From the IMG/VR virus record IMGVR_UViG_3300021957_000102, positions 1 through 40,280 of that record: DNA of 40,280 nucleotides. One strand, written 5' to 3'. A model generated the notes under the pieces. It saw only the letters and a program-made list of their open reading frames with translations. It had not been told where the DNA came from and did no database searches. Position numbers and translations under genes: made by a program. Below are positions 26,768-34,961 of the stretch, piece by piece (position 1 is the first letter of the stretch; each line of letters starts with the position of its first letter). Source of the DNA: a virus.

Positions 26768-26911
26768 CTATGCTACCTTTCTTGCTTGTAGTTTCTGTTT
26801 ACGTGCTAACTTACGTTCACGTTTCCAATCATCATTATGTTTTTTATTAGCCCCAACGTTGGGGTTAGTTTTCTTGGTGAACTTAACGTAGTTCTGCATC
26901 TCGTAGCGCAT
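26768..26911 (-). CDS. Small basic protein carrying palindromic repeat copy 1 in frame (47 aa)
   Basis: 47 aa from the ATG at 26911 (MRYEMQNYVKFTKK), with AAGGAG 8 nt upstream. Upstream in-frame sequence is open only to a TTG. Residues 15-22 (TNPNVGAN) are encoded by the repeated palindrome. The rest is Lys/Arg-rich (WKRERKLARKQKLQARK), suggesting nucleic-acid binding. It overlaps the preceding 53-aa gene by 29 nt out of frame. Confidence 0.55.
   Translation of the reverse strand: MRYEMQNYVKFTKKTNPNVGANKKHNDDWKRERKLARKQKLQARKVA
26847..26869 (-). repeat. Palindromic element, copy 1 (in gene)
   Basis: 23-bp repeat with core CCCCAACGTTGGGG at 26851-26864, flanked by TTAG on the left and TTAGT on the right (+ strand). 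Lies inside the 47-aa gene, read as TNPNVGA(N) on the minus strand. Confidence 0.9.
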
Positions 26912-27044
26912 CTCTGAACTCCTTCTTACGGTTACGTTTGGCTTTGTTGCCCTTCTTTGGAAGGACAACCTGTGGTGATTTACGTTCCTGTAGCATTGCC
27001 TTTGCTACAGGGTTAACAATTCCTATTGTCGATTTAATTTTCAT
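26883..27044 (-). CDS. Small basic hypothetical protein (53 aa)
   Basis: 53 aa, MKIKSTIGIVNPVAKAMLQE..., with a strongly basic second half (PKKGNKAKRNRKKEFRDALRD). AAAGGA lies ~9 nt before the ATG. Many small phage proteins begin this way ('I.npVAkamlq.r...qvvp.KKGk.a'), and I recognise the type. Function unknown; nucleic-acid or ribosome binding is conceivable. Its end overlaps the next small gene by 29 nt. Confidence 0.7.
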   Translation of the reverse strand: MKIKSTIGIVNPVAKAMLQERKSPQVVLPKKGNKAKRNRKKEFRDALRDAELR

Positions 27045-27061
27045 TTAACTATTCCTTTTGA

Positions 27062-27787
27062 CTAGTCAATCACAAATCCACTTGTATCTTTCTTGGCACG
27101 TCCTTTGGCATACAAGCTGACCACTACGTTAGTAGGATCAAGGAACCTAAGATCGTCTGCATCACCAGATATAACTGGACGGTCAAGAAAGGTATCTGGG
27201 ATACACTCAATGTTACGCCATACAACTGCCATGTTCATACCTTTTGCTAAAGCAATGTCAACTTGTGGCTTGTAGCGTACATCAGCTTCGCTGTAGCTGA
27301 AGGTTAGATAATAATTATCAATATGTTCAACCTTACGGTTGGCAATCTTGGTGTAGTCGTAGAACTGAATATCAGGATAAGCTGCGAATATATTCTCATA
27401 TGTTACGTCATCCTTGACCACTGGTATACGTTCCCAACGTATGTCACTAGTGCCATTCAATCGTATGACAGGCTTGACAGATTGCTTTGCACAATACTTG
27501 GCAAACTTGCCACAGTCTACAACCATTGCCGCCATGAAGCCAACACGATCTGTTGCAAACCATTCGGTTTTCCTAGCACGTGATTGCTGTACTGTGTTCA
27601 TTGCACCACGTCCAGCGGTGAATAGGCAACCGTCAATGCAACCTGCTATCTCAGCATTGGCACAAACATTTATACCAGATGATTTCCAAGGCATCATATA
27701 CATGATTGCAGTTTCATACTTGTCACCATTGCCCTTGATTGTTTTGGCATCAGCACCACTAGCGATTAATTTACCACGATAAGCCAT
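27062..27787 (-). CDS. Gp88/DUF7227-like phage protein
   Basis: 241 aa. 'NVCANAEIAGCIDGCLFTAGRG' (C42, C50, C54), then VQQSRARKTEWFATDRVGFMAAM, VIRLNGTSDIRWE, and FYDYTKI resemble the phage 'gene product 88' family. The cysteines may bind a metal or Fe-S cluster. Biochemical role unknown. The start at 27787 has only a weak SD. Palindrome copy 2 lies 17 nt upstream, and the frame is open through it without a start codon ATG. Confidence 0.72.
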   Translation of the reverse strand: MAYRGKLIASGADAKTIKGNGDKYETAIMYMMPWKSSGINVCANAEIAGCIDGCLFTAGRGAMNTVQQSRARKTEWFATDRVGFMAAMVVDCGKFAKYCAKQSVKPVIRLNGTSDIRWERIPVVKDDVTYENIFAAYPDIQFYDYTKIANRKVEHIDNYYLTFSYSEADVRYKPQVDIALAKGMNMAVVWRNIECIPDTFLDRPVISGDADDLRFLDPTNVVVSLYAKGRAKKDTSGFVID

Positions 27788-27803
27788 TGTATGTTTCTTT
27801 CTG

Positions 27804-27826
27804 TTAGCCCCAACGTTGGGGTTAGT
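27804..27826 (-). repeat. Palindromic element, copy 2 (upstream of gp88-like gene)
   Basis: Identical 23 bp, core CCCCAACGTTGGGG at 27808-27821. Intergenic, but in the same reading frame (ACT AAC CCC AAC GTT GGG GCT) as the gene that starts 17 nt downstream on the minus strand. Confidence 0.9.
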
Positions 27827-27839
27827 TTCAGTTTGATTA

Positions 27840-28004
27840 TTAAGCTGGAAGTGATCCAGCTTTTCTAAGAATATTTATTACGTCTAAACGTTTGTGTCCA
27901 GATAAAGCACAAACCTCATGTATAGCACTAGCTACAGGTGTTTGTGTTTCCATTTTATTTTCATAATGGTCAACTACCATTTGGTTTGTCCAAAGCTTAA
28001 ACAT
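27840..28004 (-). CDS. Small hypothetical protein (54 aa)
   Basis: 54 aa from the ATG at 28004 (MFKLWTNQMVVDHYENKM), chosen because AAAGGA lies 9 nt upstream. A longer frame to 28058 runs through the leader and has no SD. The second half (ASAIHEVCALSGHKRLDVINILRKAG) looks like a small helical, HTH-like unit. Ends with double stops TAATAA. Not recognised. Confidence 0.58.
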   Translation of the reverse strand: MFKLWTNQMVVDHYENKMETQTPVASAIHEVCALSGHKRLDVINILRKAGSLPA

Positions 28005-28040
28005 GTCGAAATCCTTTATTGTTGTTGTTAATGTATATAT

Positions 28041-28081
28041 GTTATATAACACTTTCACTAAAGTATCAAGTGTTATATAAC
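28041..28081 (-). repeat. Intergenic hairpin A (perfect 14-bp stem)
   Basis: Perfect inverted repeat GTTATATAACACTT (28041-28054) / AAGTGTTATATAAC (28068-28081), 13-nt loop. It lies between two early genes in the leader of the 54-aa gene. No T run follows, so it is not a standard terminator. Loop and inner stem resemble elements B and C (CTTTCA...CAAGT). Confidence 0.75.
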
Positions 28082-28090
28082 TATATACTA

Positions 28091-28219
28091 TTAAAATAAT
28101 GTATCATGTATCATTGGCATCATTGCCAATAGGAATACAAATGCTACCCAACTAACGGTAAGGCAAACCCAACCGATAGTCCTATTGCGATTGATGCGCC
28201 TTGCTTCACGTAGTGTCAT
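28091..28219 (-). CDS. Small membrane protein (42 aa)
   Basis: 42 aa. A basic N-terminus (MTLREARRINRNR) is followed by one hydrophobic span (TIGWVCLTVSWVAFVFLLAM) and a short tail. By the positive-inside rule the N-terminus would be cytoplasmic. The start overlaps the upstream stop as ATGA. An inner-membrane target in the host early in infection is a reasonable guess. No family known. Confidence 0.65.
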   Translation of the reverse strand: MTLREARRINRNRTIGWVCLTVSWVAFVFLLAMMPMIHDTLF

Positions 28220-28431
28220 GTTGTATACCATCCTGTATCTGTTACCAATGTTTGCTTGCCATCCATCATGCCAAGCTCTGTTTTGTTAGCCCCAACGTTG
28301 GGGTTAGTTTTAGCTTCCTTCGCACGTGAGAGCTTTTCTTGTAGCTCTTCACGCCGCTTACGGTCTTTGACCTCTGCTGTCATAGCATCTGCCCAAGCCA
28401 TAGTAAAACTATTATGTTGCTTATATTTCAT
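28216..28431 (-). CDS. Small hypothetical protein carrying palindrome copy 3 in frame (71 aa)
   Basis: 71 aa from the ATG at 28431, the third of three adjacent ATGs, best spaced after GGAG; 28437 and 28434 are alternatives. A charged helix (AEVKDRKRREELQEKLSRAK) precedes TNPNVGAN at residues 42-49, encoded by the repeat, and a short tail 'GMMDGKQTLVTDTGWYTT'. The inserted peptide separates the helix from the tail like a linker. Overlaps both neighbours. Confidence 0.58.
   Translation of the reverse strand: MKYKQHNSFTMAWADAMTAEVKDRKRREELQEKLSRAKEAKTNPNVGANKTELGMMDGKQTLVTDTGWYTT
28288..28310 (-). repeat. Palindromic element, copy 3 (in gene)
   Basis: Identical 23 bp, core at 28292-28305. In frame with the 71-aa gene, encoding TNPNVGAN. 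Confidence 0.9.
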
Positions 28432-28660
28432 CATCATCTCCAAACATATTTGTCCACTCCAAAGGAGTCATGCCTGTCATCAGGAACTCTCTTTGATCTG
28501 GTGACAAATCAGGCATTATATCCTGTATTAGACCACCACCTGTTAGCCAAAGATCAATCTTATCTTGACTAACAGGTAATTGCATGGAATTTACTTCTTC
28601 AGTAAACATAGATACCATAGTGACGTTAGTCAAGTTTTCTGCCATACGTTCAATTCTCAT
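28421..28660 (-). CDS. Hypothetical early protein (79 aa)
   Basis: 79 aa, acidic C-terminus (FGDDDEI). 'LPVSQDKIDLWLTGGGLIQDIMPDLSPDQREFLMTGMTPLEW' resembles the 'G.liQd.lp.Ls...REfl..G.....W' pattern that I associate with small phage proteins of unknown role. AAAGG precedes the start at ~12 nt. Its end overlaps the next gene by 11 nt. Confidence 0.68.
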   Translation of the reverse strand: MRIERMAENLTNVTMVSMFTEEVNSMQLPVSQDKIDLWLTGGGLIQDIMPDLSPDQREFLMTGMTPLEWTNMFGDDDEI

Positions 28661-28683
28661 AACATTTTACCTTTCTTATGTAT

Positions 28684-28748
28684 GTTATATATATTTATAC
28701 TTTCATAAATTCAAGTATAAATATAAATAACTACATTAAGTAGTTATT
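28684..28748 (-). repeat. Tandem intergenic hairpin element B
   Basis: Two adjacent stem-loops between early genes. Long stem: 19-nt arms 28684-28702 and 28713-28731, 18 of 19 paired, 10-nt loop. Second stem: AATAACTAC (28726-28734) / GTAGTTATT (28740-28748), 5-nt loop, reaching into the stop codon of the preceding gene. The 48-bp long hairpin differs from element C at one loop base only. Confidence 0.8.
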
Positions 28749-28983
28749 AAACCCATTGTGGGTGAATGTTAGCTTGCTCAAGCCACCGCATAGCAGTGTC
28801 TATATCTGGCGCACCATGATCCATACAAGCATTGATACTTTTATCCTCAATAGCACGTTCCTCTGCAAGTTGATTATTCAACTCACGTTGTAAGCTGTCT
28901 AGCAACTCAGTTGTTGGCACTATGCCTCGTGGCCTAAAGCCATAAACATCTTTGTAAAGATCACTAAAAAAATCATAATCCAT
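28747..28983 (-). CDS. Hypothetical early protein (78 aa)
   Basis: 78 aa, starts MDYDFFSDLYKDVYGFRPRG, a motif I recognise in small phage proteins next to early promoters ('D.yKdvyGfRPRg'), function unknown. The rest is helical (LLDSLQRELNNQLAEERAIE) with a final Trp-rich part (MRWLEQANIHPQWV). AAAGGAGATTCAAA is an excellent ribosome binding site. Flanked on both sides by hairpin elements B and C. Confidence 0.72.
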   Translation of the reverse strand: MDYDFFSDLYKDVYGFRPRGIVPTTELLDSLQRELNNQLAEERAIEDKSINACMDHGAPDIDTAMRWLEQANIHPQWV

Positions 28984-29003
28984 TTTGAATCTCCTTTATG
29001 TGT

Positions 29004-29069
29004 GTTATATATATTTATACTTTCACAAATTCAAGTATAAATATAAATAACCACAGTAATGTGTGGTTA
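29004..29069 (-). repeat. Tandem intergenic hairpin element C
   Basis: Same plan as element B. Long stem arms 29004-29022 and 29033-29051 (18 of 19 paired). Second stem TAACCACA (29048-29055) / TGTGGTTA (29062-29069). Relative to B the second stem changes AACTAC/GTAGTT to AACCAC/GTGGTT, a compensatory base-pair change. Confidence 0.8.
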
Positions 29070-29081
29070 ATTGGTAACAGC

Positions 29082-29714
29082 CTAAGCTGCTACCTTGAGT
29101 TCTTCTTTTTCAGAGACAGTATCAATCTCCATAAGAGCCTCTGCTATGTCAAGAAGATCGACGTTAGCATATGCAGCGGCCTTGACTATGCTTTGAACGA
29201 TTTCCTCTTTTGTTGGTGGTGCTGTATTAGCCCCAACGTTGGGGTTAGTTTCAGCGACAGTATCTTCTTGTACTGTCTCTTCGGGTGTGTCTTCATCTGA
29301 TGATGGAGTGTTTGCTTTAGCAGCTTGTTTCATTGCTCTCTGCAAAGCAGTAAGTGAGGTGAAACCTTTCTTTGAGGTTTGCATGAACTCTCTTGCTTCT
29401 TCTTCATTAAGAACGAACCAGAGAGCTTCGGAACGGCGTTGATCTGGAATATCTTTGATATGGCAATCGGCCAATCTGGAAGATTTAATACGCTCACCAC
29501 CTTCGGCTTTGAGTTCAACCATCAGATTGCCAAGGGCAAGAGTGAAACCAGAGATCGCTTTGACGAAAACAGAAGCACTTTCTTTTGGTGCTTTACGATC
29601 AAGTGATCTATTGAAGTTTCTCATATCAACTTTGTTGAAAGTGTCGAACCTTTCCGCTAAGGCTTTGCCTTGATCCTCAAGAGTAGTGATGTTTTGAATT
29701 TGGAGGTTTGCCAT
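29082..29714 (-). CDS. First gene of the leftward early operon; hypothetical, carries palindrome copy 4
   Basis: 210 aa. A helical N-terminal domain with 'LADCHIKDIPDQRRSEALWFVLNEEEAREFMQTSKKGFTSLTAL' at ~81-123 is joined by an acidic, low-complexity linker (~136-168) to a helical C-terminus (EEIVQSIVKAAAYANVDLLDIAEAL). TNPNVGAN at 156-163 in the linker is the repeat-encoded peptide. AAAGGA lies 7 nt before the start. It follows the presumed main promoter, so it is probably made first after infection. Not recognised. Confidence 0.7.
   Translation of the reverse strand: MANLQIQNITTLEDQGKALAERFDTFNKVDMRNFNRSLDRKAPKESASVFVKAISGFTLALGNLMVELKAEGGERIKSSRLADCHIKDIPDQRRSEALWFVLNEEEAREFMQTSKKGFTSLTALQRAMKQAAKANTPSSDEDTPEETVQEDTVAETNPNVGANTAPPTKEEIVQSIVKAAAYANVDLLDIAEALMEIDTVSEKEELKVAA
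29227..29249 (-). repeat. Palindromic element, copy 4 (in gene)
   Basis: Identical 23 bp, core at 29231-29244. In frame within the acidic linker of the 210-aa protein. Confidence 0.9.
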
Positions 29715-29752
29715 TTTTTCGTTCCTTTATGTATATTCTATTTATATAAGAG

Positions 29753-29787
29753 ATTATTACTCTCTCACAAAAAGTGAGAGTAATAAT
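29753..29787 (-). promoter_or_regulatory. 5'-leader hairpin D
   Basis: Perfect 12-bp stem ATTATTACTCTC (29753-29764) / GAGAGTAATAAT (29776-29787), 11-nt loop containing CAC...GTG. It would lie at the very 5' end of the leftward early transcript, just after the -10 box. A 5' stem-loop of this kind often stabilises phage mRNA; that use is inferred. Confidence 0.6.
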
Positions 29788-29790
29788 ATC

Positions 29791-29821
29791 GTTATAAATA
29801 TGAATATACTATAGTTGTCAA
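29791..29821 (-). promoter_or_regulatory. Probable leftward early promoter
   Basis: On the minus strand a perfect -35 box TTGACA (29821-29816) is followed 19 nt later by TATAAC (29796-29791), five of six to the sigma-70 -10 consensus; with 17 nt spacing the box would be TTTATA. It lies ~75 bp upstream of the first leftward gene with nothing else between. Host-polymerase recognition would fit a phage without its own RNA polymerase. Confidence 0.6.
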
Positions 29822-29963
29822 TCCACAAAATTTGCCTCGTGATCCTCTGCCCACGCCGTTTCCCACGCTACTGCAAAAATATATTTCATATATATTTTGA
29901 AGTTCGTGCGCTAAACTTGTGAGGCCAACCACTATCCAATCACCATAACTGTGACAAATATAT

Positions 29964-30265
29964 CACTATCAAAGATAGTGTTAGCCCCAACGTTGGGGTT
30001 AGTGATTTACATTGGCAGAGCTAATGCGGCTTGTAGGATCACATGATTGACCAATGGTATTGGTAAGAGGGGGTAGGGTTCTGTACAGCTTTGCTGTAAG
30101 GGTATCTATCAGCATAGCTGATGTAGTGGATAATATGCATCGGCATCACTACACATCTTCGATGTGAAAATCCCCCCTGTTTTTTCACTACTTGTAGTGG
30201 CAACTGATTGCATAACAGTTGTCGTAGACAAGTAACCTGTTGAAACTAAACGTATCTTCGATACG
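29964..30265. repeat. Array of short hairpins, mostly with 3-nt loops
   Basis: Perfect inverted repeats in order: CACTATC-AAA-GATAGTG (29964-29980), ACCAAT-GGT-ATTGGT (30050-30064), TACAGC-TTT-GCTGTA (30084-30098), ATCAGC-ATA-GCTGAT (30108-30122), GTAGTG/CACTAC enclosing ATGC/GCAT (30123-30152), CACATC-TTC-GATGTG (30152-30166), GTGAAAA/TTTTCAC (30164-30188), CACTAC-TT-GTAGTG (30186-30199), CAACTG/CAGTTG (30201-30221), CGTATC-TTC-GATACG (30251-30265). Stem sequences differ but stem length and loop size are nearly constant. Confidence 0.8.
29981..30003 (-). repeat. Palindromic element, copy 5 (control region)
   Basis: Identical 23 bp, core at 29985-29998. Not in any gene. It directly abuts a 7-bp hairpin (29964-29980). 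Confidence 0.9.
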
Positions 30266-30304
30266 GTGGTGAATGATGCTATCACATTTGCTTTCAACCT
30301 GCGT

Positions 30305-30366
30305 CATGGCCTTGCATTATGGGCGCAATTGCACGTTGAAGGTGGGTGGGCAGGGGCCATGCGCCC
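30305..30366. repeat. GC-rich patch with interlocking inverted repeats
   Basis: CATGGCC (30305-30311) pairs with GGCCATG (30355-30361), and GGGCGCA (30321-30327) pairs with TGCGCCC (30360-30366). The two right arms overlap by two bases, so the folds are alternatives. The patch is much richer in GC than the surrounding AT-rich DNA. Confidence 0.55.
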
Positions 30367-30595
30367 CCCTAGCGTTATATATGCATGAACTCCTACACAG
30401 ATCAGGAAAATGAGGTGTTAACCACATTACACATATAGTGGTTTACAGTATTATGTGATCACAAATATAGTGTTGTATATGTGCAACACAGCAACATTAA
30501 TAAATATAATGCTATCACAGTACGATTTACTATTGACATAATAATTAGAATGTGTAAAACTAAGTATAATAGTTAGGGTAGGGTCACTATAAGTG

Positions 30596-34239: not shown

Positions 34240-34961
34240 TGACTATTCAACGCAAACCGACAATGCCAGCTATGAAAAAAAGAGGTGGTATAGGAAGTAT
34301 GGGAAGTGGTAAACCTACAGCTAGACCAAAGGCTACAGGAAGAACTGTATATAAATCCAGAACAACTATACCAACAAGACGTGTAGCTAAACCTACACAA
34401 ACACCCAGACAAAAAGCAATAGCAGGAGCAAAAGCTAGAGGTCAAGCAAAAATAGCAGCAATAAAAAACAGATATAATTCTTTAACACCAGCACAAAAAA
34501 CAGCAATGAAGCAAAAACAACAGGCAAAAGCACTTTCATTTAAACAAAGGCAAGCTACTAATAAAGCTACACCAACTAAAACAACTGGCACTCTTGGTAA
34601 TCCTACTTCAACACAAAAAAAAATAAATAATACTAATATGCAAAAAGCTTATCCTGAAGTTAAACAGCTTTCTGCTCCACAAAAACAAATGCCTAGAACA
34701 ACCTCTTCTGTACCTGATAGATTAAAAAAGATAGTAGGTTCTACAGTAGCTAGACGTAGAAAAGCAATAGCAGTAGCAAAAGCTAGAAGTCAAGCAAAAA
34801 TAGCAGCAGCAATCGCTAGTAGACCTAGAGGAAGAACACCGTATCAAAATGCTGCGTTAAAACATCTCGCGAGTTTACGTAAAAAAACTGTACGTAGACC
34901 TACAGGAAGAACTGTATATAAATCCAGAACAACTATACCAACAAGGCGTAGGAGAAAGTAA
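34239..34961 (+). CDS. Extremely basic repetitive protein (240 aa)
   Basis: 240 aa, about a quarter Lys and Arg, few acidic residues. Internal duplications in mirror order: GRTVYKSRTTIPTRR near residues 34 and 222, and (R/Q)KAIA-x-AKAR-x-QAKIAA near 58 and 175. Composition is like a histone-like or DNA-condensing protein; a virion DNA-binding role is inferred. Coupled by TAATG overlaps at both ends. The gene itself contains a 46-bp perfect direct repeat. Confidence 0.65.
   Translation: MTIQRKPTMPAMKKRGGIGSMGSGKPTARPKATGRTVYKSRTTIPTRRVAKPTQTPRQKAIAGAKARGQAKIAAIKNRYNSLTPAQKTAMKQKQQAKALSFKQRQATNKATPTKTTGTLGNPTSTQKKINNTNMQKAYPEVKQLSAPQKQMPRTTSSVPDRLKKIVGSTVARRRKAIAVAKARSQAKIAAAIASRPRGRTPYQNAALKHLASLRKKTVRRPTGRTVYKSRTTIPTRRRRK
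34333..34378 (+). repeat. 46-bp perfect direct repeat, left copy
   Basis: Identical to 34900-34945, 567 bp further on. Encodes TGRTVYKSRTTIPTR in frame in both places of the basic protein gene. Confidence 0.9.
34900..34945 (+). repeat. 46-bp perfect direct repeat, right copy
   Basis: Identical at DNA level to 34333-34378, including all third codon positions, so the duplication or conversion is recent. Confidence 0.9.

Follow-up and report, generated by a model that had tools for sequence, protein, structure and literature searches.

Long Hairpins with Constant Loop Ends Precede Early Genes in HMO-2011-Type Marine Phages

Results

Organization of the Leftward Early Region

The window, meaning the whole stretch of DNA that was analyzed, is a 40,280-base virus record whose nearest sequenced relatives, judged by DNA polymerase identity, are the Roseobacter phages CRP-345 (80%) and CRP-1 (78%), followed by HMO-2011 (68%). 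Its early region, which holds the four hairpin elements A, B, C, and D, is a run of small genes that all point leftward; the genes and hairpins described here lie on the minus strand. In leftward order, the region comprises a TTGACA-containing stretch, element D (29750-29790), gp01 (29082-29714), element C (29004-29051), gene C (28747-28983; 78 aa), element B (28684-28731), gene B (28421-28660; 79 aa, phrog_20898, of unknown function), two small ORFs that have no hairpin, element A (28041-28081), and a further small gene (27840-28004) with its ATG at 28004, a similar sequence being found after the hairpin of CRP-345. The TTGACA upstream of D (29816-29821, minus strand) is a putative promoter −35 hexamer, accompanied by a −10-like sequence at about 29791-29798, and was not among the output of a default consensus promoter scan.

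The 210-aa product of gp01 is the conserved first early protein, with homologs in 79 collected loci, gp74 of HMO-2011 among them. It has no Pfam match and no PDB match below an E value of 0.001, and the window copy has no PHROG match. An AlphaFold model, based on an alignment of 47 sequences from which three rows from annotated phage records were left out, is all-helical and of moderate confidence (mean pLDDT 68.6). The idea that gp01 is itself a loop-binding protein found no support in this alignment, in the model, or in the family and fold searches.

The early region, and only this region, also carries five copies of the palindrome CCCCAACGTTGGGG, with 14-bp cores at 26851, 27808, 28290, 29231, and 29985, one of which lies within gp01; in gp01 relatives the palindrome encodes the motif SNVGQ. 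The palindrome differs by phage (GTCCAAYGTTGGAC in CRP-1 and CRP-345, AGTCCGACAGCGGACT-like in HMO-2011, where there are five copies, and CCCCGATGTCGGGG in locus L038) and is often placed between a hairpin and the ribosome-binding site. Such palindromes could be phage-specific operators. The rightward genes of the window also hold repeats of 49-50 nt in two near-identical pairs (34333-34460 and 34760-34949; 96% and 98%).

Predicted Folds of Elements A to D

The main hairpin of element B closes on the loop GAATTTATGA and that of element C on GAATTTGTGA, and each can be extended outward over one bulged base, by 28679-28682/28732-28735 in B and 28999-29002/29052-29055 in C. Element A, with the loop GATACTTTAGTGA and an outer stem spanning approximately 28028-28094, is near-identical in CRP-345 and CRP-1. 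Element D, a leader hairpin ahead of gp01, has a divergent loop, ACTTTTTGTGA, and is set within a wider inverted repeat (29731-29809). When the leftward strand is folded as RNA, B reaches −21.8 kcal/mol (z −5.8) and C −20.7 kcal/mol (z −4.5), energies that none of 200 shuffles matched for either element, and A and D also fold far below their shuffles (z −5.4 and −6.2, respectively). Model R1 scores A at 71.5 bits, B at 42.8 bits (E 2e-5), and C at 46.2 bits (E 3.6e-6), these scores being self-included, as all three elements sit in the model's own alignment. Elements A, B, and C each combine a long covarying stem with a loop of the form GA-N(3-9)-UGA or CGA, the two features by which the family is defined here. 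The loop of D, in contrast to the GA start of the other three, has the ends AC...UGA, and because of this D, which is probably a family member, is counted as a divergent one by its position and 3′ loop end only.

A Covarying Base Common to Two Competing Helices

The first-pass annotation had singled out B and C as a repeated pair of hairpins on the leftward mRNA. Their near-identity is confirmed, 28684-28731 and 29004-29051 agreeing at 47 of 48 positions with the sole difference in the loop, and the strand assignment is borne out by the neighboring genes, all of which are leftward. A second, smaller hairpin had been described as starting at the stop codon of the preceding gene. This is accurate for B, where the small 5′ hairpin (28729-28745) lies at the stop codon 28747-28749, but not for C, where it (29049-29068) begins 13 nt past the stop at 29082. 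In plus-strand coordinates, its arms are AACTAC (28729-28734) and GTAGTT (28740-28745) in B and AACCAC(A) (29049-29055) and (T)GTGGTT (29062-29068) in C, and the compensatory U-A to C-G change proposed for it is present, T28732-A28742 in B corresponding to C29052-G29065 in C.

To speak of a single covarying pair is, however, incomplete, since the changed base, 28732/29052, serves two helices. It also pairs with 28682/29002 in the extended main hairpin, with one base bulged, where TGTA (28679-28682) faces TACA (28732-28735) in B and TGTG (28999-29002) faces CACA (29052-29055) in C, and three columns therefore covary (A,T,A to G,C,G). The small hairpin and the extension cannot coexist, and RNAfold favors the extension in both B and C. 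The bulge and extension recur in A-type copies elsewhere, for example in CRP-345 as TACA-GTTAT...ATAAC-A-TGTA. The small hairpin is confined to one subclade, consisting of B and C of the window and the loci L009 and L038, the last retaining it by way of a G·U pair, and it therefore rests on very few sequences. Partial termination, one of the uses suggested earlier, is disfavored: the main hairpins of A to D are not flagged as intrinsic terminators and have no U tract after them, and the one hairpin that is flagged, as weakly terminator-like, is the small one of C.

A Family of Hairpins across HMO-2011-Type Phages

B and C, together with A, belong to a family that is spread over HMO-2011-type marine phages and is far larger than these two copies, its most informative part being the conserved loop. 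With window positions 27000-30400 as the blastn query, element A was recovered from both CRP-345 and CRP-1. A pattern made of the loop and a −10-like sequence matched no fewer than 119 viral contigs, some by chance. In all, approximately 73 distinct hairpins and more than 100 metagenomic loci were collected, and one locus retrieved by protein similarity only (L015) also carries the element. The helix has a median length of 26 bp (range 15-30) among 47 distinct aligned sequences, and the stems vary (AACACTT/AAGTGTT, TATACTT/AAGTATA, AACACCT/AGGTGTT, AAGAGTT/AACTCTT, and AAGCTAT/ATAGCTT). HMO-2011 has three copies, at record positions 7-39, 1207-1239, and ~54,100, the last with a G+C-rich stem (GGGATAACCCCTT-GAACATAGTGA-AAGGGGATTATCCC). 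CRP-1 and CRP-345 have one copy each plus a D-like leader hairpin, and model R1 found no additional copy in the rest of these three genomes. No copy was found in the first 8-10 kb of CRP-207, CRP-603, CRP-2, CRP-3, CRP-212, CRP-235, CRP-738, and HTVC033P, and thus the element is not universal in HMO-2011-type phages. A strict A-type pattern had no exact match in 84,980 prokaryote genomes; since this pattern misses the other stem types, the absence of prophage or host copies covers the A subtype only.

The Loop Ends Are Constant while the Stems Differ

Because the first pattern had demanded the loop, a second scan kept the stem fixed and left 6-26 loop bases open. Loops of the form GA...TGA were recovered in 57 of its 58 matches, and these include 23 different loops with variable interiors. 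The collected loci contain 54 distinct GA..TGA hairpins with at least 11 of 12 pairs, a partly ascertained set, as most loci were fetched by patterns containing the loop or stem, compared with 0-2 hairpins for each of eleven motifs of the same composition. When hairpins before gp01, gene B, and gene C homologs were chosen by pairing alone, and the genes by protein similarity, a YGA loop end was present in 38 of 43 distinct hairpins, as against 14 of 110 controls; some of these loci also came from the loop-pattern search, and the least confounded part of the comparison is the gp01 subset, at 10 of 12. Moreover, one 12-nt loop, GAGUUCUUACGA (also GAGTTCTTACGA), is identical on at least eight different stems, several of which were not demanded by the query, and a second recurring loop, CCMTTTATGGGTAAA, is borne in these phages by three long stems that are unrelated to one another (L053:4789, L105:11397, and L110:8022).

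These data bear on one alternative, namely that the hairpins are plain T7-type RNase III sites, in which only the long double helix matters, the cut is made by host RNase III, and no loop-binding factor is involved. The helices, at about two turns or more, are long enough for such sites, the hairpins lie between a stop codon and the next ribosome-binding site, and the stem sequence is free to vary. A literature search on phage RNase III sites returned nothing useful. To our knowledge, bacterial RNase III needs no defined loop. In this family, however, conservation is strongest at the loop ends and one 12-nt loop is carried by unrelated stems, and we regard cleavage sites of this plain kind as unlikely.

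Two further sets of hairpins were noted. The G+C-rich contig L282 carries a GAGTTCTTACGA or GAAATCTTACGA loop twice (144 and 3639) on one stem, GATGGGTT/AACCCATC; this pair has no clear downstream gene and is possibly an unrelated dispersed repeat. In L017, L018, and L019, a hairpin with a different loop, AAGTCCCTT-TACGWAGTG-AAGGGACT, lies ~70 nt upstream of a distant gene B homolog.

Placement, Polarity, and Exchange of Neighboring Genes

Every one of the 69 testable elements (69/69) is followed within 150 nt by an ORF in the sense direction with a ribosome-binding-like sequence, whereas the antisense equivalent applies to 9 of 69 and random positions give ~34%. In most copies the start codon is located 20-90 nt past the inner stem. 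This spacing weighs on the possibility of a translational operator, at which a phage protein bound to the loop would turn the early genes off in the manner of the T4 gene 43 operator. Although a conserved loop upstream of a start codon is what such an operator would present, and in the L048 type the ribosome-binding site does fall within the 3′ arm, most copies have that site outside the inner stem with the start codon well beyond it, and we think it improbable that the family acts in this way.

Similarly improbable is an element that works at the level of DNA, be it a σ70 promoter (TTGAWA in the loop and TATAAC in the 3′ arm), an operator, or a replication or recombination hairpin. The A type does read TTGATA-N17-TATAAC, the inner stem is almost perfectly Watson–Crick, and genes have been gained or lost beside near-identical hairpins. 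However, the −10 hexamer is missing from several stem types (L048:6456, the third HMO-2011 copy, and L105:12587), such that −35 and −10 hexamers separated by 16-18 nt are not common to all members, and the promoter reading was rejected. In addition, the conserved 3′ UGA falls outside any promoter, the stem lacks the sequence conservation expected of a protein-binding site, the polarity of the loop motif follows the sense strand, and promoter-like matches in the region number 16 versus 16.4 expected from shuffles. Hairpin promoters of the N4 type were also set aside, the stems here being far longer and no RNA polymerase being found among the proteins scanned.

Before gp01 homologs, ~25 loci have a TTGAC-type hexamer located 40-53 nt ahead of the loop, while most internal copies have none, a few A-type copies (e.g., L054, L103, L168, and L172) having one 28-29 nt upstream. 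From this distribution we infer that D would stand at the head of the operon and that the other copies would be intercistronic. The association of hairpins with particular genes is itself variable. L038 and L009 have no gene C at the corresponding place, and their gp01-gene B interval holds a B-type hairpin in L038 and a C-type hairpin in L009. Elsewhere, gene C homologs are preceded by A-type hairpins, and gene B homologs by at least four stem types (B-type, C-type, A-type, and GAGTTCTTACGA hairpins). As the same genes are found behind different hairpins, hairpin and gene are partly independent modules.

Covariation in the Stems

The alignment of 47 distinct elements was not fitted to the structure, although its sequences had been chosen for inner pairing, and in it paired cells amount to 81%, compared with 71.8 ± 0.7 in shuffles. 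Two-sided changes occur in 19 of 27 pairs, and the covariation score is 0.229, against 0.102 ± 0.008 for shuffled alignments, none of which reached it, and 0.03-0.12 for slid structures. Relatives in which the two arms had changed independently, with loss of pairing, were looked for as a case against selected structure, and none was found in the inner stem. G·U pairs are present in the outer stem, while one-sided changes to G·U are nearly absent in the inner 14 pairs. The rarity of G·U in the inner stem calls for caution: RNA helices do not usually show it, and template-switch repair of a DNA palindrome would likewise yield paired changes with no intermediates.

Taken further, the same observation could mean that there is no RNA function at all, and that these are inverted repeats kept perfect by template switching in replication and spread by duplication along with adjoining genes. 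Such a history would fit both the near-absence of one-sided inner-stem changes and the near-identity of B and C, but it leaves unexplained the constant loop ends, the invariable sense-strand placement, and the occurrence of the same loop on unrelated stems, and we consider it very improbable. The covariation of the stems, the conservation of the loop independently of the stem, and the fixed place on the sense strand before gene starts uphold the original proposal of selection for structured RNA on the early mRNA.

Discussion

The present study indicates with good confidence that these hairpins are RNA elements with a selected loop. As to the specific mechanism, we lean toward leader and intercistronic mRNA hairpins whose recognized loop would protect or process the early transcripts, and processing or stabilization is a plausible role. 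More broadly, the account best supported is that of an mRNA element whose recognized loop would influence transcript stability, processing, or the translation of early genes. Specifically, A, B, C, and probably D would be cis-acting hairpins of the early transcript, located in its leader and between its cistrons. Their loop ends may pair as tandem sheared G·A and form the recognition site for a phage or host RNA-binding protein, and the long helix would shield every early cistron at its 5′ end or direct cleavage there. As an outcome, each small early gene would be expressed as a separately stabilized unit, with D, behind the promoter-like TTGACA, acting at the operon head and C, B, and A acting inside the operon. 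A more far-reaching model, which we put forward only tentatively, is that of a loop-coded regulon, in which one RNA-binding factor reads the GA...YGA loop and co-controls several early genes while stems and genes swap between phages.

Phages of the HMO-2011 type rank with the dominant phage groups of the sea (PMC9038755); when the text of this genome paper was searched for promoters, terminators, hairpins, and RNA polymerase, none of them was mentioned. A common RNA element before early genes would be a handle on host takeover by these phages, and because the conserved signature consists of the loop ends rather than the stem, the search for a binding factor is direct. The element also offers a marker for early regulated genes in metagenomic phages.

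No Rfam family was found at its gathering threshold in the window or in 12 related loci. The best subthreshold matches were to DUF2815 RNA (RF03084; 24.5 versus a gathering score of 41.2) and caiA RNA (RF02934; 26 versus 55.5 bits), with which the only shared trait is a hairpin just before a ribosome-binding site and ATG. Matches of L048 to microRNA precursors, which were many and weak, were set aside, as any long hairpin would give them.

Several known systems resemble parts of the pattern. In the early region of T7, long RNase III-site hairpins lie between early genes, just ahead of the next ribosome-binding site; the placement is alike, and the differences are that the loop is conserved in the family described here, in which cleavage is only putative, whereas we know of no conserved loop at the T7 sites. 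Tandem sheared G·A pairs are a feature of k-turns and K-loops, and the GA...UGA ends are compatible with such pairs. A k-turn or K-loop has GA on one side and U-GA on the other, beside a helix, which matches the loop ends here (PMC5061560), although in our family the length and sequence of the interior vary, and the likeness is one of sequence alone, with no L7Ae-type protein identified. The extended start-associated sequences (ESAS) of cluster K mycobacteriophages are imperfect inverted repeats with a variable spacer, of unknown function, that precede several start codons and, as here, lie just upstream of them and ahead of different gene families (PMC3203893). ESAS arms, however, are 17 bp long, follow a within-genome consensus, and go together with a 13-bp SAS sequence (PMC3203893), whereas our family has arms with no common sequence, those of A, B/C, and D differing within one genome, and shares its loop ends; when the sequence downstream of A, B, C, and D was read by eye, the SAS GGGATAGGAGCCC was not found. 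The gene 43 RNA operator of T4 and RB69 is a hairpin upstream of the gene; its loop bases are conserved, its lower stem diverges, and a phage protein binds it (PMC3014915). It differs in serving one gene with a short stem, while the present family serves several genes per phage with stems of ~26 bp and a binder that is only postulated. Thus, intercistronic RNase III sites in T7, repeats of the ESAS kind (PMC3203893), and a conserved-loop hairpin at T4 gene 43 (PMC3014915) are already known. The papers and RNA families searched held no example of a stem free in sequence joined to a constant loop and repeated ahead of several early genes throughout a major marine phage group. This pattern suggests an RNA control element, so far undescribed, that would be recognized by something.
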